A stretch of 64,000 nt of DNA from Chloroflexota bacterium (lineage in GTDB: Bacteria > Chloroflexota > Anaerolineae > Anaerolineales > Anaerolineaceae). Below are positions 3,059 to 18,003 of this stretch, piece after piece (positions within the stretch are counted from its first letter, which is position 1; the number at the start of each line of letters is the position of its first letter). The translations under genes and the position numbers were made by a program. The DNA lies in the NCBI GenBank assembly GCA_029556265.1, contig JAKQFH010000026.1, positions 1-64,000 of the forward strand, given 5' to 3'. The notes beneath the pieces are model-generated. The model saw nothing but the letters and a program-made list of their open reading frames with translations. It had not been told where the DNA came from and did not search any database.

Positions 3059-4243
3059 ATGACAGCTACAATCCTCGTGGTCGACGATGAGGAAACCGCC
3101 CGGCTGGTGGTTTCCGAGTTTTTGCGTTCCAAAGGTTATGAAGTTCTGGACGCCGGCACCCTCGCCGAAGCCCGTCAGTATATCAACAAAGGGGAAGCCG
3201 ACATCATCATCCTCGATGTTCGCTTACCCGACGGTTACGGTCCAAACCTCCTGACCGAAACCGCGCGTATGGTCAACCGACCTCAAATTATCATCATCAC
3301 CGCCCATGGAGAAATCGGCATGGCGGTGGACGCGATGAAAAATGGGGCGCAGGATTTTATTGAGAAACCGCTTGACCTGTTGGAGCTGGAAAAATCCGTC
3401 CGCCGGGCAGGCGAAGTCGTCGCCATGCGCAGGGAACTGAATCACCTGCGCGAGGCGCAAGCCGGGCAGGAGGAATTTATCGTTGGTGAGACCCCAGCGA
3501 TGAAACAGATAATCGATCACGCCCGCCGCACAGCGGAAAGCGGAATATCAGCCCTGATAACCGGCCCGACCGGTACCGGAAAAGAAGTCCTGGCGCGCTA
3601 CATTTACAAAACCGGCGTCCGTTCCGGTAAGCCCTTTGTGGATATCAACTGCCCGGCGATTCCCGTCACGATGTTCGAATCGGAACTTTTTGGGCACGAA
3701 GCCGGCGCGTTCACCGGCGCCACGCACAAGAAAGTGGGGCTCATGGAGGTCGCGGACAAAGGCATTCTCTTCCTGGATGAAATCGCGTCGATGCCTTTGG
3801 AATTGCAGGCAAAACTGCTGCGCGCCATCGAAGAACGTTCATTCAGGCGTTTGGGTGGAAACACTTTGATAAACGTGGATGTGCAAATCCTGGCAGCCTC
3901 AAACCGCAACCTGAAAGAAATGATTGCCAACGGGACATTCCGCGAAGACCTTTATTACCGCCTGAAAGTCTCCGACCTGGACCTTCCGCCGCTTGCCGCC
4001 CGCAAACAAGATATCCCCAATCTGGTCGGATATATGCTGCGGAAATTCACGATGCGTTCCGGAAGCCAGATAACTGATGTGACCCCGCGGGCCATGCAAT
4101 CCCTGATGGATTATTCCTGGCCTGGCAATATCCGCGAACTGAGCAATGTAATTGAACGCGCCGTCATTTTTTGCGACGACCCCGTCATTGATATCAACCA
4201 CCTGCCTGCCGACCTGTTGAACGCGGCTGAAAGCGGCGCCTGA
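3059..4243 (+). CDS. NtrC-family sigma-54 activator lacking the DNA-binding domain
   Basis: 394 aa, started by ATG behind AGGTGAG. The receiver domain (1-120) has the acidic pair D9/D10 and phosphoacceptor D53 (ILDVRLPDG). The AAA+ domain (about 145-380) carries Walker A GPTGTGKE, the sigma-54 contact loop GAFTGA and the arginine-finger region. The protein stops shortly after the SWPGNIRELSNVIERA helix, about 50-70 residues short of NtrC, so there is no Fis-type helix-turn-helix. This resembles the DNA-binding-free activators FlgR (Helicobacter) and the chlamydial AtoC homologue, which act from solution. The next 25 bases after the stop hold a sigma-54 promoter, its likely target. Truncation by sequencing error is possible, but the promoter follows directly. 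Confidence 0.93.
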   Translation: MTATILVVDDEETARLVVSEFLRSKGYEVLDAGTLAEARQYINKGEADIIILDVRLPDGYGPNLLTETARMVNRPQIIIITAHGEIGMAVDAMKNGAQDFIEKPLDLLELEKSVRRAGEVVAMRRELNHLREAQAGQEEFIVGETPAMKQIIDHARRTAESGISALITGPTGTGKEVLARYIYKTGVRSGKPFVDINCPAIPVTMFESELFGHEAGAFTGATHKKVGLMEVADKGILFLDEIASMPLELQAKLLRAIEERSFRRLGGNTLINVDVQILAASNRNLKEMIANGTFREDLYYRLKVSDLDLPPLAARKQDIPNLVGYMLRKFTMRSGSQITDVTPRAMQSLMDYSWPGNIRELSNVIERAVIFCDDPVIDINHLPADLLNAAESGA

Positions 4244-4252
4244 TTTTCGTTC

Positions 4253-4268
4253 TGGCACACTAATTGCA
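4253..4268 (+). promoter_or_regulatory. Sigma-54 (-24/-12) promoter
   Basis: TGGCAC followed by ACTAA and TTGCA. The invariant GG (4254-4255) and GC (4266-4267) are exactly 10 bases apart, as required for sigma-54. It lies 10 bp after the activator stop and 39 bp before the next start codon, so it should drive the membrane protein, TPR and peptidase genes. There is no room for a classical upstream activator site outside the activator gene, which fits an activator with no DNA-binding domain. Confidence 0.9.
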
Positions 4269-4306
4269 ACGTAGCCTCTCAAGAGTAATCATCTCAGGAG
4301 GCTTTT

Positions 4307-4639
4307 ATGTTCGCAACAACGAATCAGGTCATACAGGTCATTGCCTATATCCTGTTTGGTCTGGGGATTCTATGTCTGATTCTCAGCATCATTATCCTCG
4401 CCAAGCAGACAGTCGGCAAAAACATCCAGACAATTGCCAACCAAACCACGAAACTGGCCGAAAAAGGGATTACTGACGGCGTTTCCGGCTTGGTAGGCAA
4501 CGCGTCCCTTCTGATCAGTTCCTTAAACGACCTCTCCCGCTCCAATTCCGGCATAGGCATCTTTTTTGTGTTCCTAAGTCTGGTCCTCCTGGCAGCCGCC
4601 TATTTCTTCATTAAATCATTTATCGGGGTCATCCCCTGA
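4307..4639 (+). CDS. Small two-TM membrane protein of the sigma-54 operon
   Basis: 110 aa with an excellent ribosome site (AGGAGG, 4296-4301). Two hydrophobic segments are seen, about residues 9-30 (IAYILFGLGILCLILSII) and 85-108 (FFVFLSLVLLAAAYFFI). The 55-residue loop between them is rich in Thr, Ser and Asn. No family is recognised. It is the first gene behind the sigma-54 promoter and is followed after 23 bp by the giant TPR gene. A membrane anchor or sensor for the downstream TPR/peptidase pair is conceivable but not shown by the sequence. Confidence 0.8.
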   Translation: MFATTNQVIQVIAYILFGLGILCLILSIIILAKQTVGKNIQTIANQTTKLAEKGITDGVSGLVGNASLLISSLNDLSRSNSGIGIFFVFLSLVLLAAAYFFIKSFIGVIP

Positions 4640-4662
4640 ACCTGACACCCGGAAAGGACTGA

Positions 4663-7600
4663 ATGATGAGCGTCGCGCGTTTTCTTGAGCTGGTCAAATC
4701 CCGCTTTACTCCGGACGCGGCTAAAGCGAAAGTCAGCGCGTTTCGCGCTGAACCGCTGGCATGGAAAGCGCTGTCTGACGATACGCTGTTCAGCGCGTTT
4801 CAGGACTTTGCCGGACAAGACAGCAGGCTTTGGCAGCCTGGGGTTTTCGCGCTGTTCGCCCTCAGCCCAAAGCTGGCAGCTCAGGATCTGCGCGACCCGG
4901 AAGTAAAAGTCCCCGCAGCAATCAACACGAAAGCGCTCAAGACCCTCGAAACAATCCGCCTGACCGGACTTGAACCCAGCACGTTGGAAGAAGCCGGCTT
5001 GATGGCGCTCACGCTCCGCAGCTTCTACCTCCAAAAGGCAAACTGGAACGACGTTCACGCCTTCCTGAGCGCCCCGCGCGGGAATCTCAAACTTTGGCGT
5101 CCGGCTTTTGCCTGCCTGCCTTCGCTGGCGCCGCAGCTCCCGGAGCTATCTCAGGAACTTGCCAGGACGACTCCACCGGCGCAAGCCGCGCGAATTACCA
5201 GCCTTCTCTTGCACGCCATAAACTGCATACCCGCCTTGGAAAGCGACCGCTTCCAACTCCTGACCGATCTATTTGGTATCTCATCGCTCGATTTTCAACG
5301 CGAATGCCTCCAGCAGTTAAAAAGCGTTGAAACTCCCGAGTTTATTGAACGCCTGGCCGCCAGCTTTCTGGCCTCCAATCCGCCGGAATCTCCTGATTAC
5401 GGGACAAGGGGAGACCCGGCTTCCTTCGAAAGCGTAAATGAGCTTCGAAAAATCGCTTTTCTGTCCCTGGCTGCCGGTCAAAAACAGGAAGCCGCGCAGT
5501 TTATCCAAAGCGCCTTCGCGCAGCTCAACGCCAGTCAGGCCCTGCTGATGCGCGACCTGGCATTTGAGCTGGAAAAAACCGACCCGGAAGAAGCCAGAAA
5601 GGTCTGGGAGCAGGTGCTCACCCTCGCCCCCGACCAACCCGGCTACAAGGAAAATTACGCCGAGTTTCTGCTGGCGCACGGCGAAATCGAGCACGCTTTG
5701 GATCTGCTCAATCAGGTGCCTGCGTCCGCCCAAAAAACGCTGCTGGCCCTGCGCTATCCCGATTTACGTGCCCATCTGAACCTGGATAATGACGACTTGC
5801 GCGGGCTTTCAGGTAAGCAGGAAACCAGTTCCCGTTTTTTGCATGAGAAGGACGCCCTTAAAGCCGCCCGCTACGCTTTTGAGAACAAAAATTTTGCTCT
5901 TGCCGATGAATTGATTGGGAAAGCGCTGAGTTCCAACCCCAACGATTTGGAAATCATAAAACTGGCAGGTCAAATAAAAAAACATACCGCGGACGTGGAC
6001 GCGGCAATCCAATCTTCACAGCTGATCTCGCTCTACGAACCAAACAATCTGGCGAATAAAAAAGAGCTGGCTGCCCTGTTCCTCCAATCCCAGCACCCGG
6101 AAAAAGCCCTGGAAATTTATCAGGAATTCATCTCCACCCATCTTGAACCATCCCGTTCGGATCTGCTGACATACGCGGATATTGCCATCAAAGCCGGCAG
6201 CCCCGACCTCGCGATCCCGATATGCGAAAGCTTCCTGAGCCGGGATAACCTGGATGGTGAGGCGCTGGTCACCTTATGCACCGCGCAAATTAAAAAAGGC
6301 GACGAGGAAAGCGCGGTCCGGTTGCTGGAACAAACCTCCGCAATCGCTCCGGAAAAACCAGCCAGCTGGCTCGCCCTCGCCGAAATCTGGACCTCCCTCG
6401 GCAGAACCGAAAAGGCCATGGAATCTTTGCAAAAGGCGAAAGCCGCTCTGCCAGCCAACCCCAGCATTTTACTGGCGCTCGGCAAGCTCTATTCCGAAAA
6501 CGACAGACCAACGGAAGCGGTTGGGGTCCTCAAACAGGCTTTCCAATTGAACCCGGACGACCTGGAAATCCGCAAATCGCTCACGAGAGCATATCTAACC
6601 CACGGCTATCTTAATGAAGCCTGGGCTGTCATCGGGCCGCTGGAAGCGGAATACACCTCAGACCCAGAGCTTGCGCTGACGCTTGGGCAGGTCTTGGTGG
6701 CCCTGGGTGATTTTCAGGCATCCAAGCCGGTCTTGCGCTTCGCGTGGCATTCCAGCCGCTCAGACGAAGCGCTAAAAGCCTACACGCAGCTCCTCCTGCG
6801 GCAGTCCGACCAGTCTTGGGCCCTATCCGAAACTGACAGCAAAGAACTTCAAAAATTCCTGGAAATTGTCCGCGAAAAGGCTCAGACCGGGCAAGGTTCC
6901 TTCGATTTTAAGGTGCTCGAAGCCGACATTCATTACGCACAGGGCAATCTCAAGGAGGCTTTTCAAACCTACCTCGAGCTTCTGGACCACCCGGAAGGCA
7001 AAACACCACACACCTATTTCCACCTGCAGCATCAAATCGGGCGCAGCGCCCTGAAACTTGGCTCGCCGGATGTCAGTCTCTCAGCGCTGCAGGAAGCCGT
7101 ATCAGTCAACCCCGACAACCTGGATGCGCGCCACACGCTGGCCGAGGCTTTCGCGGCAGCTGGTTTGCGCGAAGAAGGTCTGGCGGCAGCCAGGGCAACC
7201 TTACAGCTGGCGCCAACCGAATTGGATAACGTCTTATGGTACAGCAGTTTTTGCGGCGCGCACGAGAATGAACGGGAGGCGATTCAGGTTCTGAAGGATA
7301 CGCTCCATTTGCTTCCCAACGAGCAATCCTTGTTTCTCGCGCTGGCGCGTGCCTATCTCTCCATGGGCAACATCGAAGAAACAAAAGAAACCCTGAACCG
7401 CATGCTCGCAGGGGATAATATCAGCACCGAAGAGTATGTGAACGTTGCCAATATATACCTGCACCTCAACAACTCGGCCGAGGCGGCGCGTGTTATCCGC
7501 CAGGCAATCGCGAATAATCCGCAACCGGAATTCGCTGAAGCGCGGGACCTTGCTTATACTGTTATGCGGCTCGGAGACGGCGCGGCCGCGCTTCAACTGC

Positions 7601-10005
7601 TCACGGAGCTTGAAAAACCTCTGGGCGCGCACCCTTGCTTCCCTATCCTCAAATCCGACATTCTGACCGGAAACAAACAGCTGATACCCGCGCTCCAAAG
7701 CCTTCTCCCTCTGCTGAAAGAAATCGAATTCTCCACAACCGACCTAACCTTTGAAGTATCTGCCAGCCCGGCATTTGAAGGTAAACTCCCGGCCTATAAC
7801 CGGGAAGGGGTGCTTTATCGTGCGGCCCAGTTGGAGCGCGCGACGGGCGATTTGGCAGCAGCCCAGAAACATGTTGAGCTTGCATCCTCGTTAAATCCTG
7901 ACGATGCGGATTTCGTTTTACTGAAAAGTGAAGTGGACTTCGCTTTAAAAAAGACCGCCAGGCTGGACGCCGCCCTGGAATCACTGGAAAACAGCCTCAA
8001 TTCCGCGGCGCACCAGGAAATGACGCGTCTGCTTACGGCAAACGCTCTGCTCGAACGCGACCCGGTCAAAACGCATTTGTTGGTGGATCACTTCCTCACC
8101 CATCAGAACCCCACCGCAATTCTTCACGCCGCGCGGGCGTTTCTGGCGCTCTCTGATGGGAAGCTTGCCCAGGCCGGGGATGAACTTCGTTCCGCGGAAG
8201 CCCTACTGGAGGAAAGCTACGCGCGGTCTGCTCTTGAGGCATTCAACATTCCCGCCCATTTCGCCTGGGTGTGGCAGGCGCTTGGCTTAGCCGCCGCGGC
8301 TTTTGAAGCTCAGGACTGGAACCTGGCGGATAAATGCTTCGCCTACGCGCAAGCCGAAATCAAAGTCAATCCGGTTATCAACCAGCAGTTAGCGGAATAC
8401 CTGGTCGAGAAAGCCCGGGTTGCCAATAACGCCAGAGCGCTGCGGATTGTGCGGCACAAGCCCCAACCCTTCAGCCCGGAGCAGTCTGATCAGGAAATCC
8501 ATCAGGAGCAAATCGCAATTGCCGGGCGCTACATCAGCGCGGCCGAAATGCTGCCCACCTTAAAAATCGGCCAGGCTGTGTTCACTGGTCTCTGGAATGA
8601 CGGGGAGGACCTTAAACAGCTCGTCAAAAACAGCCGCCAGGCCGCTCAGGCACTGTCCATCCAGATTAATCCTGAGACAATCCGGCAGATTTCAGGCGCG
8701 TTCTCGGATGACTTTGAGGTAGGCTTCCAGGAAGCTGTGCTGCTGCTCTATAAAAATCCGGCAGCCTGCGCCAAAAAGGCTGAAACACTGCTGGGAAAAC
8801 AACCCGGTAACCCCTGTTTGCACACGATGCTCGCTCTCGCCCGACAGGCGGAACCCGAGAAAGCCGCGGCCTCCATCGAAAAAGCGCTGGAAATTTGGCC
8901 GGATGAACCGGACTGGCACGCGATTGCCGGCACATTTTGGGAACAATCCGGCTGCTTTGATAAAGCTGCCAAACACCTCGAAGACGCCCTGCGCATCCTG
9001 CCCGAATCCGCGCAATACTGGCAAATGCTTGGAGATATTAAGGTGCTCGAAAAGGATTTCCACGCCGCGCGCGACTACTTTATTAAAGCGGCCGAGCTCT
9101 TCCCCAATAACCCGGAGGCGCTCTTCTCGCTGGCGCAGACAAACCAGCAGCTGGGTGAGCATCAGACTGCCATTGAATACCTGAAGGAATTGGAGACTCT
9201 GAACCCGGGAAAGAGCGAATACGGCGAAGCCATCGCCGAATCCTATTTCGCGCTGCAGGATTACCTGGCAGCCGAAGGACATGCCAATCGGGTGCTCCAA
9301 TCCAACGCGCGCAGCAGCCGGGCGCTTCTGGTAAAAATCAAATCCCTGATGAATCGGCGTCAACTTGAAGAAGCCAAACGTGTCCTGGACGCAGCCAGGG
9401 AAATGCTTGCCGACCCTGTTCCGTTGGAATTGCTGGCAATTGAACTGGACGCGAGCTTACAGCGCAAATCGGGGTTGGGCGCCGCGCTGGCGCTCGCCGA
9501 AACCTACCCCGACCGCCCGCTGGTACTGAACAGCTTAGCTGGCTATTACCTGGACGCGAATATGCAGACGCAAGCGGAGGAAACCCTGCACCACAGCCTG
9601 AATTTGGACAGACAAAACCCCCAGACGCTGCTGATGCTCGGGCGAATCTCCCGCCGACGCGGCAATCTGGACCAGGCGCTTGCGTATCTGAACAGCGCCC
9701 TGGCCGCAAACCCCAGTTTGATTGAAGCCTACCTTGAATTAGGGCAAACATATCAGGACCGCCGTGATAGTACCCGCGCGCTGGAAACCTACCACCAAGC
9801 CATCGCGATGGTTAAAAATGATCCCAGAGCATACCTTCAGGCTGCCGCCGCGTATAAGGACAGCAAAGATTACCGCAGCGCCGAGAGCATGCTGCGCCAA
9901 GCCGCCCAAATTGCCCCGAACGACCCGGCAATCCGCAGACAGCTCGCGTCCATCGCAGCCCTGAATTTGGTGAATAACTTGCAGGAGGCACCAAAACGAA
10001 GATGA
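4663..10005 (+). CDS. Giant tetratricopeptide-repeat protein
   Basis: 1780 aa, Ala- and Leu-rich, built almost entirely of helical TPR-type repeats. Typical repeat phrases such as LGKLYSENDRPTEAVGVL and LGRISRRRGNLDQALAYL recur from about residue 290 to the end, with paired Asn-Pro turns between them (LNPDDLEI, VNPDNLDA, ANPSLIEA). No signal peptide, membrane segment or catalytic motif is visible, so it should be a cytosolic scaffold or solenoid. GGAAAGGA precedes the start; ATG at 4666 is an alternative. Its stop overlaps the start of the peptidase gene (ATGA), which implies coupled translation and probably a physical partnership. The size is exceptional for a bacterial TPR protein. Function is unknown beyond protein-protein interaction. 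Confidence 0.88.
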   Translation: MMSVARFLELVKSRFTPDAAKAKVSAFRAEPLAWKALSDDTLFSAFQDFAGQDSRLWQPGVFALFALSPKLAAQDLRDPEVKVPAAINTKALKTLETIRLTGLEPSTLEEAGLMALTLRSFYLQKANWNDVHAFLSAPRGNLKLWRPAFACLPSLAPQLPELSQELARTTPPAQAARITSLLLHAINCIPALESDRFQLLTDLFGISSLDFQRECLQQLKSVETPEFIERLAASFLASNPPESPDYGTRGDPASFESVNELRKIAFLSLAAGQKQEAAQFIQSAFAQLNASQALLMRDLAFELEKTDPEEARKVWEQVLTLAPDQPGYKENYAEFLLAHGEIEHALDLLNQVPASAQKTLLALRYPDLRAHLNLDNDDLRGLSGKQETSSRFLHEKDALKAARYAFENKNFALADELIGKALSSNPNDLEIIKLAGQIKKHTADVDAAIQSSQLISLYEPNNLANKKELAALFLQSQHPEKALEIYQEFISTHLEPSRSDLLTYADIAIKAGSPDLAIPICESFLSRDNLDGEALVTLCTAQIKKGDEESAVRLLEQTSAIAPEKPASWLALAEIWTSLGRTEKAMESLQKAKAALPANPSILLALGKLYSENDRPTEAVGVLKQAFQLNPDDLEIRKSLTRAYLTHGYLNEAWAVIGPLEAEYTSDPELALTLGQVLVALGDFQASKPVLRFAWHSSRSDEALKAYTQLLLRQSDQSWALSETDSKELQKFLEIVREKAQTGQGSFDFKVLEADIHYAQGNLKEAFQTYLELLDHPEGKTPHTYFHLQHQIGRSALKLGSPDVSLSALQEAVSVNPDNLDARHTLAEAFAAAGLREEGLAAARATLQLAPTELDNVLWYSSFCGAHENEREAIQVLKDTLHLLPNEQSLFLALARAYLSMGNIEETKETLNRMLAGDNISTEEYVNVANIYLHLNNSAEAARVIRQAIANNPQPEFAEARDLAYTVMRLGDGAAALQLLTELEKPLGAHPCFPILKSDILTGNKQLIPALQSLLPLLKEIEFSTTDLTFEVSASPAFEGKLPAYNREGVLYRAAQLERATGDLAAAQKHVELASSLNPDDADFVLLKSEVDFALKKTARLDAALESLENSLNSAAHQEMTRLLTANALLERDPVKTHLLVDHFLTHQNPTAILHAARAFLALSDGKLAQAGDELRSAEALLEESYARSALEAFNIPAHFAWVWQALGLAAAAFEAQDWNLADKCFAYAQAEIKVNPVINQQLAEYLVEKARVANNARALRIVRHKPQPFSPEQSDQEIHQEQIAIAGRYISAAEMLPTLKIGQAVFTGLWNDGEDLKQLVKNSRQAAQALSIQINPETIRQISGAFSDDFEVGFQEAVLLLYKNPAACAKKAETLLGKQPGNPCLHTMLALARQAEPEKAAASIEKALEIWPDEPDWHAIAGTFWEQSGCFDKAAKHLEDALRILPESAQYWQMLGDIKVLEKDFHAARDYFIKAAELFPNNPEALFSLAQTNQQLGEHQTAIEYLKELETLNPGKSEYGEAIAESYFALQDYLAAEGHANRVLQSNARSSRALLVKIKSLMNRRQLEEAKRVLDAAREMLADPVPLELLAIELDASLQRKSGLGAALALAETYPDRPLVLNSLAGYYLDANMQTQAEETLHHSLNLDRQNPQTLLMLGRISRRRGNLDQALAYLNSALAANPSLIEAYLELGQTYQDRRDSTRALETYHQAIAMVKNDPRAYLQAAAAYKDSKDYRSAESMLRQAAQIAPNDPAIRRQLASIAALNLVNNLQEAPKRR

Positions 10006-12707
10006 TACCCTATCGCCTTCCCAAAAATGACGAAGCAATGATTGTCCGCCGGGGCAAATTCCTGACCCTGGTGCAGACGGCAATGAACAAACGCGAACTG
10101 CAATTTGTCCGTCAGGCTTGCCTGATTTGGCTGGCAAGTTACCCGGGCGACCTCCTGGTGAATTACATCTATGCCGCAATCCTGGCCGAACTTGGGGATA
10201 CTGAAATGGCGGTCGGCGCGCTCCAAAAGATTATCGCTTACGATCCTGAGTTTACGGAAGCGATGAGCTTGCTCAGCCAATTAGTTAATGGGGAAGCGAT
10301 TGACATTGAATACCACTCCTCTCTGGCATACCTGCAGCGCAACCCCGCGCCTGTGCCGCCCATTGCCAAGTGGTTCGCGCCCTTCATGAATGCCCGCCAG
10401 GCATATGAAGCCGGAGACCAAAGCGCGGCCGAAAAAGCTGTCCTTCAGGCCCTGGCTCACAACCCGAGCCTGCCGCTGCCTGCTATCCTGCACATGCGCA
10501 TCATCCACAAAAATGGAAATATGACCCTGCTGGACACCCTGGCTGGAATTTATGGAAGCCGCTGGCAGGACTGTATTCAGATAAAACTGCTTTCCGCCCT
10601 GGCGGACATGCAGCAGGGCGAAGACGCGCGGGGGGTTGAAAAACTGCATTGGAGCGCCGCGCATGATGTCAGCGGGCAAGCAGCCAACCGTTTGCTTGGG
10701 GTTGAGCATGCCTTCAAACCAATCTGGCCGGATGACCTGAAAGTTTACTTTGACCTGCCGATTCCCGCTTCCATTGCTGTGGAACTGGGTTGGAACGCCC
10801 TGGCAACACCCGCTGCGGCGGTAAGCCCAGCCACGCCCCTCGCTGACGCAGGAACCGCCCCCAACCAGTTGGGTAATACCAGCAGCCTGCCGGTTACGCA
10901 AAAGATTTCCGATTTTACAAACACCGACGAAATCGATCACTCCGAAGTCCCTCCCGAAGCGTTCCTGCTCAGCAAGTCTCCGGATTTTGGCGACGAAAAG
11001 CACACCAAAGCAAGGGATGAGACGGTCGCTTCATTAAATGAAATCCAGGCGGAATTTGACAGAATTGCCAAGTCACTGCGCAAATCTGAACTGAGCACGG
11101 CCGACGCGCGTTTTCCAAACTACGTGCTGATGAGTTCCAAAACCGCGCTCACCCAAAAATATGGCGCCAACACCGCCAATGTCATCATCGACGCGATGCA
11201 GGATCTGGCCATAAAAATTACCGCGCTTCCGGGTTGGAACAGCGTCGTTTTGGTGCCGGATGATCCGCGCATCGCCAATGACCTGGGCCTGACGCCCAGC
11301 CAGACTAACGAAGCCTGGAACCTGAAGCTTGCTCTGGCTGAATTGGATAAAAAATTGGCGGAAAAAGGCGAAATGATCGGCACGCTGCTCATCATCGGCG
11401 GGAACGATATCGTGCCATTCCACCAGCTCCCCAACCCGACCGACGACGCGGATACCTATGTACCTTCCGACAATCCCTACGCGACGGTGGATGACAATTA
11501 TTTCATTCCTCAGTGGCCCGTTGGGCGTATCCCGGATGAAGCCGGCAGCGATCCAGTCTATCTGATTGAGCAGCTGCGTTACCTGAACAACGAATACGCG
11601 CTGAAGTTAAAAGCCAAAACAATCATCTCGGGAACCGTGTTTGAAAGTTGGATTTTCAATCTGAGAGAGTCCATCTTTGCGACCTTACAGAGTTTCAGAC
11701 GCTCTGAGCAGCTCGGTTATTGCGCTGAAGTTTGGCGGATCCCCAGCGCTGACGTATTCAGCGTGATAGACCGGGGAGACCGGATTAAATCCTCACCACC
11801 CGAAGACACCTCCAGCGTCCTTGCCAGACAAAAATCCAATCCCAGTTTTGGCTACTTCAACTTGCATGGGCTGAAAGACGCCCCCGAATGGTTTGGGCAA
11901 AGTGACCTGGCCCGCCGTTTGGACAGCCCCGAATACCCGGTCGCGGTTGTCCCCTCACTTTTTTCGGCGGCCACTCCGGCACCGGATATTGTGCTGAGTG
12001 AAGCCTGCTACGGAGCGAATATTCTCGAAAAGACCGCGGGTCAAAGCGTGGCCTTGAATTTGCTCTCCGCTGGCAGCCGCTCTTTCGTTGGTAGCACTTG
12101 CATTGCCTACGGCTCGGTCAACAAGCCTTTGGTCGGCGCAGACCTGTTGGCGCACAGCTTCTGGACGCAAGTGCAGAACAGTATGCCGGTCGGTTACGCC
12201 TTGATGCGCGCCAAGCTGACGCTTGCCAGCAAAATGACCCAGGCTCAGGGCTACCTGGATGGAGAAGACCAGAAAACAATTCTCTCTTTTGTCTTGTATG
12301 GCGACCCGTTGGCGAACAAAGACAGCCTGAGGAACATTCCCAAGCCGCTGCTGCGCCCAGCCAAACATCTTGAAATCAAAACAATCAGCGATTCTCATGA
12401 AGAGATGGTTGTTACCCCCGAAGAAATGCCCAACGAGATTCTTGACAATGTCCGGAAAGTAATCAGCGAATATTTGCCGGGACTGGATAATGCGACTGTG
12501 GCAATTAACCCGCAGCTGACGAACTTCTCATTGGATCCCCTGGGCGCCAAAGACCGTAAGTCCCGAAAGGTCTACCTGGAAGGCAGTGAGCGATATGTCG
12601 TCACCCTCCGAAAGAGCGTGGAAATTAGGCAAATATCTCACGAGCAATACGCCCGCATGACTTTCGACCATAAAGGCGAGATGATTAAATTGAGCCTGTC
12701 CAAGTAA
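10002..12707 (+). CDS. TPR protein with C25/gingipain-like caspase-fold peptidase domain
   Basis: 901 aa. Residues about 15-190 are TPR-like helices (IYAAILAELGDTEMAVGAL), followed by a Pro/Ala/Thr linker. From about 350 to 770 a clan CD peptidase domain can be read. It has VGRIPDEAG, then His622 in YFNLHG and Cys669 in LSEACYGAN as the catalytic dyad, then the C25-like SFVGSTCIAYG and FVLYGDPLANK. About 130 further residues follow. Gingipains have this order but are secreted; this protein has no signal peptide and should act inside the cell. The start overlaps the TPR gene stop, with AGGAGG at 9983-9988. CHAT or caspase family membership is the alternative, but the post-Cys motifs favour C25. 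Substrate unknown. Confidence 0.82.
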   Translation: MIPYRLPKNDEAMIVRRGKFLTLVQTAMNKRELQFVRQACLIWLASYPGDLLVNYIYAAILAELGDTEMAVGALQKIIAYDPEFTEAMSLLSQLVNGEAIDIEYHSSLAYLQRNPAPVPPIAKWFAPFMNARQAYEAGDQSAAEKAVLQALAHNPSLPLPAILHMRIIHKNGNMTLLDTLAGIYGSRWQDCIQIKLLSALADMQQGEDARGVEKLHWSAAHDVSGQAANRLLGVEHAFKPIWPDDLKVYFDLPIPASIAVELGWNALATPAAAVSPATPLADAGTAPNQLGNTSSLPVTQKISDFTNTDEIDHSEVPPEAFLLSKSPDFGDEKHTKARDETVASLNEIQAEFDRIAKSLRKSELSTADARFPNYVLMSSKTALTQKYGANTANVIIDAMQDLAIKITALPGWNSVVLVPDDPRIANDLGLTPSQTNEAWNLKLALAELDKKLAEKGEMIGTLLIIGGNDIVPFHQLPNPTDDADTYVPSDNPYATVDDNYFIPQWPVGRIPDEAGSDPVYLIEQLRYLNNEYALKLKAKTIISGTVFESWIFNLRESIFATLQSFRRSEQLGYCAEVWRIPSADVFSVIDRGDRIKSSPPEDTSSVLARQKSNPSFGYFNLHGLKDAPEWFGQSDLARRLDSPEYPVAVVPSLFSAATPAPDIVLSEACYGANILEKTAGQSVALNLLSAGSRSFVGSTCIAYGSVNKPLVGADLLAHSFWTQVQNSMPVGYALMRAKLTLASKMTQAQGYLDGEDQKTILSFVLYGDPLANKDSLRNIPKPLLRPAKHLEIKTISDSHEEMVVTPEEMPNEILDNVRKVISEYLPGLDNATVAINPQLTNFSLDPLGAKDRKSRKVYLEGSERYVVTLRKSVEIRQISHEQYARMTFDHKGEMIKLSLSK

Positions 12708-13052: not shown

Positions 13053-14939
13053 ATGTACGGTTACAGTGGAAAAATCCTGCACATTGATCTGAAAACCAAA
13101 AAGAACTGGGTCGAGACCAAGCCGGAAGAGTGGTATAAACTCTGGATTGGCGGCGTCTCAATGGCTTCCCGCCTGCTCTGGGAAAATATCGTCCCAGGCT
13201 GTGACCCACTGGATGACGGGAACCCAATTTGCATTGCGAATGGTATTTTTACCGGTACGCCAGTCCCTGTTGGAGGCAAATTCGGTTTGGCTTCCAAATC
13301 CCCGCTGACAGGCTTTGTTGGCGACAGCCTCTCAGGCAGTTGGTTCTCGATTGCCCTCAAGCGAGCGGGTTGGGACGGTGTAGTCTTGCACAACAGCTGT
13401 GACAAATGGACGCATCTGTTCATTGACGACGACCGGGTCCAATTCAATGATGCCACCTATTTGCTGAGAAAAGGAACCTTTGAGACCGAAGAGGCAATCC
13501 GCGACAAACTTGGCGATGACCAGATCCGTTCTTGCACCATTGGGATTTGCGGTGAAAACCTGGTACGGTACGCGAACGTCACCAACGACGGCAGGCAGCT
13601 TGGACGCACGGGTCACGGTATGGTTTGGGGAAAGAAGAAACTGAAAGCCCTTTCCGTACGCGGAACAAAAGGCGTCAAGGTGTTCGACCCGGCGGCATTA
13701 AATCAGCTCTCTTTTGATATCTCAAAATCCGCGCAGGGTAAGGATACCGAAAAATACCGGATTTATGGCACGGCGACGGGTATGTTGAGCCAAAACAAGG
13801 CGGGCGTTCTCCCTACGCGCAATTTTACTGAAGGCGTGTTTGAAAATGTGGAAGAGGTCAGCGGGGAATATCTGGACAAACACCATAAAGTGAAGGTGGT
13901 TGCCTGCGCCCAATGCCCGATTGCTTGCGAACAGATGTCCATCGTGAAAACCGGGCCTTTCGCCGGCGCAATGACCGGGATTGAGTATGAGAGTCTGTTC
14001 GCGAACAGCTCCAATCTCGGCGTTTCGGACATGCGCGCCGCCATCAAACTGATTACAATTTCTGACCATGACGGCATGGACTCTATCAGTATGGGTGTAA
14101 CGATTGGTTTCGCGATGGAATGCTTCGAAAAGGGCGTTCTGACCGAAAAAGACTTCGCCTGCCCCTCGCATCCGGAAGGTTTCACGCTGAATTTTGGAGA
14201 CGGAGATTCCGCTGTCAAATTGGCCGAAATGATCCGCGATCGCGAAGGCATCGGTGATCTGTTTGCTGAAGGGGTGCGCATCGCTTCCAAGAGAATCGAT
14301 GAAGAAAGAGGCAGCGAAAGTTGGAAGTGGGCCATGCACATCAAAGGTCTGGAACCAGCTGGCTACGACTCCCGTTCGCTCAAGACCTTCGCGGTGGGTC
14401 TGGCAGTTGGCACCCGCGGCGGCTGTCATAACCGCTCTGCCGCGTATGACCCTGACATCAAAGGCGAGACAAACCGCCTGACTGTGGATGATACGCGCGG
14501 TCGGGTTGCCGCGGAGTCTGAGGAATATGCGGCTGTTTACGACTCCCTGCCCTTGTGCAAGTTTATCCGCCGCAGTTTTACAGGCAAAGCGGACCGCGCC
14601 GGAGCCTGGCCCGCGATCGCGAAACTGATTAACGCCACCACCGGCTGGAATTACGACTACGATGACGTGGATCTGATTGGGATTCGCGCCCACACCATCA
14701 AGAAAGCCTTTAACATCCGCGAAGGTTGGACTGAGAAAGATGACGAACTGCCGTGGCGCTGGAAAAATGAAGCCATGCATTATGGCCCCGGCGCCGGCGT
14801 GTTCGTGACCGACGAAGAACTTGAGTATATGAAAAAACTCTATTACGAAGCCAAGGGTTGGACGCCGGACGGGATGATTCCAAAAGAACTCCTGATTAAA
14901 CTGGGCATGCCCGACGTCGCTGAGCAAATTGGAGTATAA
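13053..14939 (+). CDS. aor: Tungsten-dependent aldehyde:ferredoxin oxidoreductase (AOR family)
   Basis: 628 aa, full family length, with GGGAG before the ATG. The N-terminal domain binds the bis-pyranopterin cofactor. The [4Fe-4S] ligands are Cys285, Cys288, Cys292 (CAQCPIAC) and Cys502 (SLPLCKF), the spacing seen in Pyrococcus AOR (288, 291, 295, 494). The family oxidises aldehydes to acids with ferredoxin, or reduces acids in reverse. The related BamB reduces benzoyl-CoA. The gene opens an operon with HycB-like, HdrA, HdrC, MvhD and Flx-like genes, so electrons probably pass to a bifurcating flavin complex rather than to free ferredoxin alone. The substrate cannot be read from the sequence. 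FdhD, needed by some Mo/W enzymes, is encoded at 47.8 kb. Confidence 0.93.
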   Translation: MYGYSGKILHIDLKTKKNWVETKPEEWYKLWIGGVSMASRLLWENIVPGCDPLDDGNPICIANGIFTGTPVPVGGKFGLASKSPLTGFVGDSLSGSWFSIALKRAGWDGVVLHNSCDKWTHLFIDDDRVQFNDATYLLRKGTFETEEAIRDKLGDDQIRSCTIGICGENLVRYANVTNDGRQLGRTGHGMVWGKKKLKALSVRGTKGVKVFDPAALNQLSFDISKSAQGKDTEKYRIYGTATGMLSQNKAGVLPTRNFTEGVFENVEEVSGEYLDKHHKVKVVACAQCPIACEQMSIVKTGPFAGAMTGIEYESLFANSSNLGVSDMRAAIKLITISDHDGMDSISMGVTIGFAMECFEKGVLTEKDFACPSHPEGFTLNFGDGDSAVKLAEMIRDREGIGDLFAEGVRIASKRIDEERGSESWKWAMHIKGLEPAGYDSRSLKTFAVGLAVGTRGGCHNRSAAYDPDIKGETNRLTVDDTRGRVAAESEEYAAVYDSLPLCKFIRRSFTGKADRAGAWPAIAKLINATTGWNYDYDDVDLIGIRAHTIKKAFNIREGWTEKDDELPWRWKNEAMHYGPGAGVFVTDEELEYMKKLYYEAKGWTPDGMIPKELLIKLGMPDVAEQIGV

Positions 14940-14950
14940 GGAGAGAATCG

Positions 14951-15466
14951 ATGGCACTAACCAGTACCTCAAAATACGCGTATATTGAATGTGATCCCAA
15001 CCTGTGCGTGGGTTGTCAGCTGTGTGAGTATATGTGCTCATTCACCAAAACCGGTGAATACAACAGCTTCCGCAGCCGCATCCGCACTGTTCGTGTGGAC
15101 GAAGTGCTCATCAGCGCTATCGCCTGCCGCACCTGCGAAAACGCGCCTTGCGTTATCGTGTGCCCCCGCGATGCGCTGACCCAAGACCCCGATCTCGGGA
15201 TTATCCGCGTCGATTCAACCAAATGCGACGGGTGTGCCTGGTGCGTTGAAGCCTGCGATTTTGGCGCGATTTCGATTAACCCCGCCACTACCCTGGCTGA
15301 GATTTGCGACTTGTGCGAGACGCATCCGGAAGGTCCTCAATGCGTCAAGTGGTGCCCCAAGGAAGCCCTCACCATGACCACGGCAGACCAACGTGCCCAG
15401 CGAAACCGGAAAAAACTAATCGCGGAAGCGCTGGACATCCCCACAAAAGCATCGGATCCTAAATGA
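14951..15466 (+). CDS. HycB/BamC-like protein with four [4Fe-4S] clusters
   Basis: 171 aa, ATG behind AAGGAG, 11 bp after the AOR gene. Sixteen or so cysteines fall in the four-cluster pattern of formate dehydrogenase and AOR electron-transfer subunits: CVGCQLCEYMC (about 19-29), CRTCENAPCVIVC (about 59-71), CDGCAWCVEAC (about 92-102) and CDLC with CVKWC (about 119-139). It probably wires the AOR cluster to the HdrA module. The stop overlaps the HdrA start (ATGA), which indicates translational coupling. BamC of class II benzoyl-CoA reductase is the closest named parallel by context. No membrane anchor is seen. Confidence 0.9.
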   Translation: MALTSTSKYAYIECDPNLCVGCQLCEYMCSFTKTGEYNSFRSRIRTVRVDEVLISAIACRTCENAPCVIVCPRDALTQDPDLGIIRVDSTKCDGCAWCVEACDFGAISINPATTLAEICDLCETHPEGPQCVKWCPKEALTMTTADQRAQRNRKKLIAEALDIPTKASDPK

Positions 15467-18003
15467 CCGAAGAAGAACACAAACCCAATCCAACAGAAAC
15501 GCCGCCGGAAGAGGAACTCCGCATCGGCGTCTATGTTTGCCACTGCGGCAGCAACATTGCTGGCGTCATTCCGCCCAAGGAAGTCGTCAACTTTGCCGCG
15601 GAACTGCCCGGGGTTGTGCGCGCAACCGATACACTTTACGCTTGCGCGGACAGCGGTCAGCGCCTGATTAAAGAAGACATAAAAAAGTACAACCTCAACC
15701 GCGTGGTAGTTTCCGCCTGTTCAGTCAGGATGCATGAACCCACTTTCCGCGGCGCTGTCTCCGAAGCAGGGATGAATCCTTTCTTGATGGAAATGGCGAA
15801 TATTCGCGAGCAATGTACCTGGGCGCACGGGCACGACCGCGAAGGCGCCCTCGCCAAAGCCAAAGACCTGACCGCCTCCGCGATTTCCAAAGTTTCGTTC
15901 TTGCAACCGCTGGACATGATTAGCGTTCCCGTCTCCAAAAAGGCGATGGTCATCGGCGGCGGCGTGGCTGGCATCAGCGCGGCCCTGGACCTGGCGGAAC
16001 AAAATATTCCTGTAGTACTGGTCGAAAAAGAACCAACGATTGGAGGGGTCATGGCGCAGCTCAACAAGACCTTTCCAACGATGGACTGCAGTATATGAAT
16101 TCTCGCGCCAAAAATGGTTGACGCGGCGCGTCAGCCCCTCGTAGAAGTCAAAACTTTCACTGAAGTTGAAAAAGTCGAAGGTTTCGTCGGAAACTTCAAA
16201 GTAACCCTGCGCGAAAAATCCAAATACGTGCGCGCGGATCGCTGCAACGGCTGCGGCGCCTGCGCCAAGGTTTGCCCGATTGAAGTCCCGAATTATTTTG
16301 AAATGAACCTGGCTCCCCGCAAAGCGGCGTATATTCCGATGAGCCAGTCCGTCCCGCTGATTTATAACATCGATATCGACGCCTGCATCCACTGCTACAA
16401 ATGCGTGGAAGCTTGCGGGCCGCTGGAAGCGATTGATTTCAGCATGCAAGACAAAATCGTGGAAGAAGAGATTGGCGCTATCATCGTGGCAACCGGCTTC
16501 TCGCACTTTGATCCTACCCCGATGGAAGAATACGGCTACAACCGTTATCCCAATGTCATCACCTCCATGGAAATGGAACGCCTTAACAACTCGGCTGGTC
16601 CGACTGCTGGCAGCCTGATCCGCCCCAGCGACGGAAAAAAGCCGCAGCGTCTGGCGTTTATCAACTGCGTCGGTTCGCGCGACAAGCGCTTTGTGGAAAG
16701 CTGCTCCAATTTCTGCTGCATGTATTCCATCAAAAACGCCGTGCTTGCCAAGCAGATGAATCCGGACGCGGATATCACCATCTACTACATGGATATTCGC
16801 ACGCCCTCCAAGGGTTACGAAGAGTTTTATAACCGCGCCCGCTCCATGGGGATCCACTTTATTCAGGGTCGCCCCGCCATGATTACCGAAGACCCCGAAA
16901 GCCATAACCTTTTCATCCATACGGAAGATATTGCTTTGGGTAAGGTCGTGGAACATGAATACGACCTGGTAATGCTCAATCAAGCCGCCGTACCGCAGCC
17001 CGACCAAAACCATATGAGCTCGGTTCTGAACGTTGCGCAATCACCAGGCGGCTGGTATATGGAATACCACCCCAAACTGCGCCCGATGGACAGCCCGACA
17101 GACGGTATTTTCTTTGCCGGCGCCTGCCAGGGACCCAAAGACATTCCCTCAAGCGTCGCCCAGGGTTCGGCAGCTGCCGCGCGGGCATCGCGCGTCTTGC
17201 ATTCAGATTCCTGGCAGATTGAGCCCACCATCGCGAACGTCTGGTCAGACCGCTGCGTCAGCGCCCAAGGCAAAGCCTGCGGGATTTGCGAACGTTCCTG
17301 CCCATACGGCGCGATTGATTACACCCAGGGGCTTGCCGCGGAGGTCATCACCGCGAAATGCCACGGCTGCGGCGCGTGCGTGGGCGAATGCCCGCACGAC
17401 GCGATCACCCAGCTGCATTACACCGACGCGCAAATCCTCGCCCAGATCCGCACCTTGCTGGCAGATCAGCCCGAGAAGAAAATTCTGGCCCTGCGCTGCC
17501 ACTGGTGCTCGTACGGCGGCGCGGACCTGGCGGGTACCAGCCACTTTGAATACACCTCCAACGAACGCGGCATCAAAGTCATGTGTTCCGCCCGTATGGA
17601 CGCTGACTTTATCTACGAAGCCTACCGCCTCGGCGCGGGAGCCGTGCTCTACTCCGGCTGTCACCCGCAAGACTGCCATTACATCACCGGTCAGGTCATC
17701 GGCGCCAAACGCGCCAAACGCCTGGAGACCATCTTTGAGCGCATGAATATGAGCCCCGGACGCTTCCGGGTGGAGTGGATCAGCGCCGCAGAAGGTGATA
17801 AGTACGCCCGGGTCCTCAACGAAATGCAGGCGACCCTGGATGCCATTCCACCCGAAGATTTGCACGCGGAAATTGAGCGCATGCGGCCCGAAATGGCAAA
17901 ACGACTCTCCCGCCTGCCCAACATTCCCGGCGTTCAACGCGCGATGGAACATACTGAGGTGGTCGTAAACACCATTCTCAGCAGAGAGAAGGCGTCCGTA
18001 TGA
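15463..18003 (+). CDS. hdrA: Selenocysteine-containing HdrA-like flavoprotein with C-terminal MvhD domain
   Basis: Read as one 846-aa protein across an in-frame TGA (16096-16098) at residue 212. The frame before it ends in FPTMDCSI and resumes with ILAPKM. HdrA normally reads DCSICILAPKM here, so TGA replaces a conserved cysteine, as known for selenoprotein HdrA. Domains: N-terminal HdrA region with YVCHCGSN, a Rossmann FAD site (VIGGGVAGISAALDLAE), ferredoxin inserts (CNGCGACAKVC, CIHCYKCVEAC), C-terminal ferredoxin sites (CGICERSC, CHGCGACVGEC), and from about 670 a fused MvhD domain (RCHWCSYGG, CHPQDCHY). HdrA is the bifurcating FAD subunit. The start overlaps the upstream stop. A plain nonsense mutation is the alternative, but the flanking sequence is perfectly conserved. 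Confidence 0.88.
16096..16130 (+). promoter_or_regulatory. UGA selenocysteine codon with SECIS-like hairpin
   Basis: TGA at 16096-16098, then after 5 bases a perfect 6-bp stem CGCGCC (16104-16109) with GGCGCG (16125-16130). The loop is 15 bases and contains GGTTGAC. A stem-loop starting within a few bases of UGA with a GU-containing loop is what bacterial SelB recognises. No sel genes lie in this window. Confidence 0.7.

Follow-up and report, generated by a model that had tools for sequence, protein, structure and literature searches.

C25 peptidases are known mainly as secreted virulence factors; the gingipains, RgpB and Kgp, are exported zymogens with a prodomain and adhesin/CTD domains. 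Clan CD proteases are also found joined to helical repeats. The eukaryotic enzyme separase (C50) combines a helical-repeat superhelix with a clan CD protease in a single chain and has a role in cell division, and TPR-CHAT (Csx29) of the type III-E CRISPR system Craspase is one cytosolic protein composed of TPR and a clan CD protease (PMC9729208, PMC10028731). The closest named relatives that we found for the protein described here are leaderless proteins annotated as "C25 family cysteine peptidase" and encoded on rhizobial plasmids (e.g., WP_166217254.1 and WP_027688958.1). These contradict the statement in the initial annotation of this DNA that known C25 enzymes are secreted; leaderless C25 proteins are already known elsewhere, and the one described here is not the first of its kind. 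On a Bradyrhizobium plasmid (L201, positions 4617 to 7522), the leaderless C25 gene lies after a trypsin-like protease gene and before a small hypothetical gene that overlaps its end, and these genes may form an undescribed two-protease unit.

The window, which is the whole 64,000-nucleotide stretch of DNA analyzed, comes from a Chloroflexota bacterium of the family Anaerolineaceae. The gene under study and its parts are as follows.

10002 to 12707, + strand: TPR-like and C25-family peptidase ORF, 901 aa, ATG start
10002 to 10796, + strand: N-terminal alpha-helical TPR-like region, residues 1 to 265 (weak HMM match in the window copy, clear in relatives)
11124 to 12311, + strand: C25 domain, residues 375 to 770 approximately (PF01364 in relatives, BLASTP alignment)
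11865 to 11867, + strand: codon of His622, the predicted catalytic His (NLHG, within YFNLHG; conservation and C25 alignment)
12006 to 12008, + strand: codon of Cys669, the predicted nucleophile (SEACYG, within LSEACYGA; conservation and C25 alignment)
12402 to 12704, + strand: C-terminal tail, residues 801 to 901 (YLPGL ... ARxTxDxxGxxxKLxxS), conserved across homologues

Like the window protein, the rhizobial proteins have no signal peptide, and they are collinear with its residues 375 to 768 at 26% identity, with the HG and E-C-CYGA motifs. In contrast, they are only 507 to 522 aa long, have no N-terminal TPR region, occur patchily on plasmids, and have no giant TPR gene or small two-TM gene among their annotated neighbors. 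With the gingipains and other secreted C25 peptidases, the window protein shares the PF01364 family, the order of the His-Gly and Cys motifs, and the final GDP motif, but it is probably cytosolic, is TPR fused and operon controlled, and lacks the export signal of the secreted subgroup. TPR-CHAT has a CHAT domain and is guided by crRNA, whereas the window peptidase has a C25 domain in place of CHAT, no gRAMP or CRISPR linkage, and rpoN, histidine kinase, and NtrC genes as neighbors. The likeness to separase, which belongs to a different family, extends to a role in cell division only insofar as that role is predicted for the window peptidase. As far as we have seen, the TPR arm and the operon are specific to this group among C25 proteins, and no description of the module was found in the literature searched, which consisted mostly of papers outside subscription. 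The locus suggests an intracellular, scaffolded role for peptidases of this family.

Residues 375 to 768 of the window protein align with a RefSeq-annotated C25 peptidase with an E value of 6e-26 (pairwise BLASTP), His falling on His and Cys on Cys, and this partner is itself above the Pfam PF01364 cut-off of 23 bits. The Pfam search gave no PF01364 match for the window copy itself, and six of its relatives score 33.6 to 48.5 bits, some of them over nearly the full length of the model. Based on these relatives, the BLASTP pair, and the presence of the C25 His-Gly and Cys motifs, we conclude that the protein has a C25-family domain with a probable His/Cys dyad, as the initial annotation had proposed. 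The assignment does not depend on the profile comparison (HMM/hhalign) with the two ordinary, secreted-type C25 proteins of about 1000 to 1200 aa that are encoded in the same genome (L188 and L189), in which the motifs are collinear and the E value of 0.36 is not significant alone. Searches of PDB sequences returned TPR proteins only, and searches of NCBIfam returned only TPR-type or weak matches. For the caspase-like alpha/beta fold expected of C25 peptidases, AlphaFold models built from only four sequences had a mean pLDDT of 37 for the full length and 39 for residues 362 to 786. His622 and Cys669 are invariant in 27 of 27 diverse family members, which is the conservation that the initial annotation had called for. 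In a wider set of 44 sequences, drawn also from other families of the phylum, 43 have the His and 41 the Cys, and catalytic activity of this pair is predicted on that basis. The exceptions are three proteins of one distant family (f50), at loci where neither the small gene nor the giant TPR gene was detected. In these proteins (L096, L101, and L107), each of which is encoded beside a GH-like gene (see below), the Cys is replaced by Gly or Ser, and in one the His is also replaced. These are apparent pseudo-proteases, and loss of the Cys in this family indicates that some relatives can dispense with proteolysis.

The remaining structural features that had been read from the window alone also held when homologues were compared. 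No signal peptide or TM segment was found in the peptidase, and none of 27 homologues has a hydrophobic N terminus (the maximal 19-residue Kyte-Doolittle mean is 1.1 to 1.8 in 27 of 27). TPR helices are matched weakly in the N terminus of the window copy (E 0.003) and clearly in relatives (TPR_19, E 2.8e-16 in L092). The start codon of the peptidase gene overlaps the stop codon of the preceding giant TPR gene (ATGA), and a 4-nucleotide overlap is present at most homologous loci, in line with the coupling of the two genes in translation that the initial annotation had read from the overlap.

The peptidase gene is the last gene of a cassette that begins at the left end of the contig:

53 to 1117, + strand: rpoN (sigma-54), truncated 5' at the start of the contig (PF04552/PF04963)
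1121 to 3052, + strand: GAF/PAS histidine kinase (Pfam HATPase_c, HisKA, PAS; synteny conserved)
3059 to 4243, + strand: NtrC-type response regulator (Pfam Sigma54_activat, Response_reg)
4253 to 4268, + strand: predicted -24/-12 sigma-54 promoter, TGGCACACTAATTGCA, an exact motif with a predicted +1 near 4279
4272 to 4302 (window 4268 to 4309), + strand: inverted repeat with its left arm at about 4272 to 4279 and its right arm over the Shine-Dalgarno GGAGG (4297 to 4301)
4307 to 4639, + strand: 110-aa protein with two predicted TM segments and the conserved linker TxKLAEKGITDxxSGLVGNASxLI (hydropathy, alignment)
4663 to 10005, + strand: giant TPR protein, 1780 aa, probably cytosolic (Pfam TPR_19, E 3e-57)

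The giant TPR homologues have no signal peptide, their hydropathy maxima are mostly below 1.9, and similarity of the giant TPR protein to PF20308 (TPR-S) is marginal. The gene order rpoN, histidine kinase, NtrC, -24/-12 promoter, two-TM protein, giant TPR, and TPR/C25 is fixed wherever the locus extends far enough upstream. The C25 gene is present in 129 of 147 genomes of its own family, including 62 of the 64 high-quality genomes, normally in a single copy, and the nearest named records of the peptidase are Anaerolineaceae and Chloroflexi MAGs. Its distribution is patchier in the wider phylum (31 of 400 genomes), where the trio of small gene, giant TPR gene, and C25 gene occurs together at nine of the loci read from other families, in some cases in genomes without rpoN. 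Within its family, the C25 gene is a core gene and not a mobile defense gene.

Sigma-54 is present in only some Chloroflexi and has a general link to the bacterial exterior (Francke et al. 2011, PMC3162934). A single rpoN gene was found in 128 of 147 family genomes, and the rpoN gene of the cassette is the only one detected in the genome of the window. In 14 of 15 rpoN-bearing genomes checked, there is one sigma-54 activator (a single PF00158 match), which is the NtrC of the cassette or its counterpart, and the cassette NtrC is likewise the only sigma-54 activator detected in the genome of the window. The checked genomes of a family of the same order (f2) have no rpoN, activator, C25, or GH-like gene. 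The exact sigma-54 motif has 10 matches in the window's own genome versus 0 for the reversed control; however, one match per 64 kb is unremarkable alone, since it was obtained in 24 of 100 shuffles. Our claim of an operon promoter is therefore based on its conserved position and not on the single match: an equivalent -24/-12 site lies between NtrC and the small gene at nearly all family loci. The position of +1 is predicted from motif spacing. With a promoter motif at a conserved position and an activator encoded beside it, the operon has the features of a sigma-54-dependent operon, and promoter activity is presumed from them. Five genomes have a further sigma-54 match ~4.6 kb ahead of the operon promoter, which points to sigma-54 control of the rpoN operon as well. 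A sigma-54 regulon under one two-component activator, CtcB-CtcC, has been described in Chlamydia trachomatis, where it is tied to membrane reorganization (PMC7482065). Both are single-activator sigma-54 systems, and their targets differ. To our knowledge, the activator and sigma genes of C. trachomatis are not linked to a protease operon.

The inverted repeat downstream of the promoter pairs the ribosome-binding site of the small gene with promoter positions of about -11 to -1, so that the left arm lies almost wholly upstream of the predicted +1. In the window, the leader folds with -14.1 kcal/mol (z -3.9) when the left arm is included versus -2.9 kcal/mol from +1, and the family leaders fold with about -11 to -27 kcal/mol with the left arm versus about 0 to -9 kcal/mol from the predicted +1. 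The helix has a covariation score of 0.381, compared with 0.204 +/- 0.022 for shuffled alignments, which leave the relatedness of the sequences in place, and with at most 0.22 for slid controls. Among sigma-54 leaders of GH-like genes, which served as a control, such a hairpin was found in 4 of 22 and was weak. A transcript begun at the predicted start would lack nearly all of the left arm, so that only sigma-54-initiated mRNA would be freely translated. In the simplest interpretation, translation is blocked on read-through mRNA and permitted on mRNA that begins at the sigma-54 start. The same principle, start-site-dependent masking of a ribosome-binding site, is known from the T4 lysozyme gene. 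An alternative is that a DNA operator, instead of an RNA switch, occupies this position. A general role of the hairpin as an intrinsic terminator was rejected, since many loci have only a short T-run or none. If the RNA switch operates as predicted, the operon is a testable case of translation permitted only from a regulated start site.

The same sigma-54 system appears to control a second locus, which in the window's genome lies on another contig:

G000:C60:105035-106327 (L060): GH-like homologue with its own exact sigma-54 motif
G000:C60:103807-105072 (L190:5808-7073): second FtsZ (FtsZ2), immediately downstream of the GH-like gene

The GH-like gene, of ~450 aa, is present in 128 of 147 family genomes; in families of the phylum outside this one, it adjoins the C25 gene. 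An exact sigma-54 motif precedes the GH-like gene at every complete locus of the window's genus (25 of 25) and also in numerous further genera. Among the 400 genomes of the wider phylum, a full-length GH-like gene was found in 19 of 31 C25-positive genomes and in 1 of 369 others (Fisher p 2e-23, a value that is inflated by phylogeny). The GH-like protein has no Pfam match. A putative acid/base Glu (NEPN) is present in outgroups (e.g., L092:13380-14732 and L094:4111-5466) and is replaced in the window's family, which suggests that the protein of this family is a degenerate glycosidase. In FtsZ2, the T7 loop reads NVDFSHI or a close variant, with Asp replaced by His in 27 of 27 sequences, versus NLDFADV in five canonical FtsZ proteins. 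Loss of the T7-loop Asp predicts impaired GTP hydrolysis, and based on this replacement FtsZ2 is probably GTP-hydrolysis impaired. Of 15 genomes tested, all 11 from the family and G373 encode two FtsZ proteins, and G257, G311, and G295 encode one; two are found only where the module is under sigma-54. In G311 and G295, the trio is present without FtsZ2, and in G373 (L091) a single cluster contains the trio together with the GH-like and FtsZ2 genes. Further predicted sigma-54 targets include LysM, M23, amidase_3, and Ser/Thr kinase proteins; beyond the protease and GH-like/FtsZ2 operons, the predicted regulon consists of single motif matches, some of which will be due to chance. Sigma-54 matches inside coding sequence of the same genome (L055, L058, and L059) were set aside as chance.

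Taken together, one sigma factor and one activator appear to be devoted to the protease operon, the second FtsZ, and genes of the envelope. This amounts to a sequence-based prediction of the purpose of sigma-54 in a bacterial family that is large and little understood. The explanation that we favor, with confidence slightly better than even, is that the protein is a regulated cytosolic C25 protease, mounted on a TPR scaffold that is tethered to the membrane, and serves a sigma-54-controlled envelope/division program. The peptidase would be a cytosolic C25 cysteine endopeptidase with its own TPR-like docking arm, cotranslated with the giant TPR scaffold and the two-TM protein, a possible membrane anchor for the complex. 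The operon would stay off until the neighboring histidine kinase activates the NtrC encoded beside it and the -24/-12 promoter opens. In read-through transcripts from the upstream rpoN operon, the hairpin would mask the ribosome-binding site, and a sigma-54 start would remove one hairpin arm and free translation, so that promoter and hairpin together would block leakage twice. The same switch is predicted to induce the GH-like protein, FtsZ2, and peptidoglycan-active proteins. The TPR proteins would recruit a specific substrate, which the protease would most likely cleave during envelope or division remodeling. For the division/envelope role itself, to which coregulation and linkage point, we see about an even chance or a little better. 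We regard as possible, though rather doubtful, a bolder reading in which one sigma factor, activator, and kinase govern the hydrolysis-impaired FtsZ2, a degenerate GH-like partner, the TPR scaffold, the anchor, and the C25 protease, with start-site-gated translation, as a new septation or filament-fragmentation machine with separase-like proteolysis.

The initial annotation noted a resemblance to protease effectors of bacterial immune systems. In an immune or abortive-infection reading, TPR proteins would sense infection and release the C25 protease, with cell death or dormancy as the outcome. The combination of TPR and a caspase-fold protease does recall TPR-CHAT of Craspase, and layered repression would suit a toxic enzyme, but such an effector is very improbable: the gene belongs to the nearly universal core of its family, keeps a fixed order with rpoN, the histidine kinase, and NtrC, and shares its predicted control with FtsZ2 and peptidoglycan genes. 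In addition, no phage homologue of the peptidase was found, none of 92 pattern matches on viral contigs encodes a relative, and PADLOC gave no match for the C25, small, or GH-like proteins and only weak TPR-type matches for the giant TPR protein. The C25 domain could instead be mainly a scaffold or binding module in which catalysis is dispensable, as the f50 relatives without the Cys might indicate; given the invariance of both residues in the diverse family members, we consider this highly unlikely.

Two further readings, both unlikely in our judgment and about equally so, would keep the enzyme active and assign it other work. PorU of the T9SS is a C25 sortase, and a role in maturing surface structures such as pili, the S-layer, and lipoproteins, as a processing protease or a sortase-like enzyme held at the inner membrane face by the two-TM protein, would agree with predicted sigma-54 targets that include LysM proteins, lipoproteins, and, in two genomes, an RcpC/CpaB-like protein (below the Pfam cut-off); the peptidase has no export signal, however, and the cassette no conserved pilus gene. 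General intracellular proteolysis or stress quality control under nitrogen or carbon limitation, with sigma-54 as the starvation switch, would fit the classical tie of sigma-54 to nitrogen, and giant TPR proteins could gather many substrates, but the motif matches read in the window's own genome are envelope/division related or of unknown function, not nitrogen genes, and clan CD enzymes are site specific and not bulk degraders (PMC12445089).

Variant arrangements of the cassette were seen at two loci. In genus g10 (L046:3057-10240), rpoN, histidine kinase, NtrC, small, and C25 genes are present; a giant TPR gene is not recognizable, and the small gene lacks a preceding sigma-54 motif. In a class relative from another family (G273; L104:2284), a sigma-54 motif and an NtrC-type gene lie upstream of the small gene, TPR, and C25 genes, and rpoN is on a different contig. 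In the window, genes similar to those for an aldehyde ferredoxin oxidoreductase, a 4Fe-4S protein, and an FAD oxidoreductase (13053 to 16098) lie just downstream of the cassette; because they adjoin it in close relatives only, these redox genes are probably unrelated to it.
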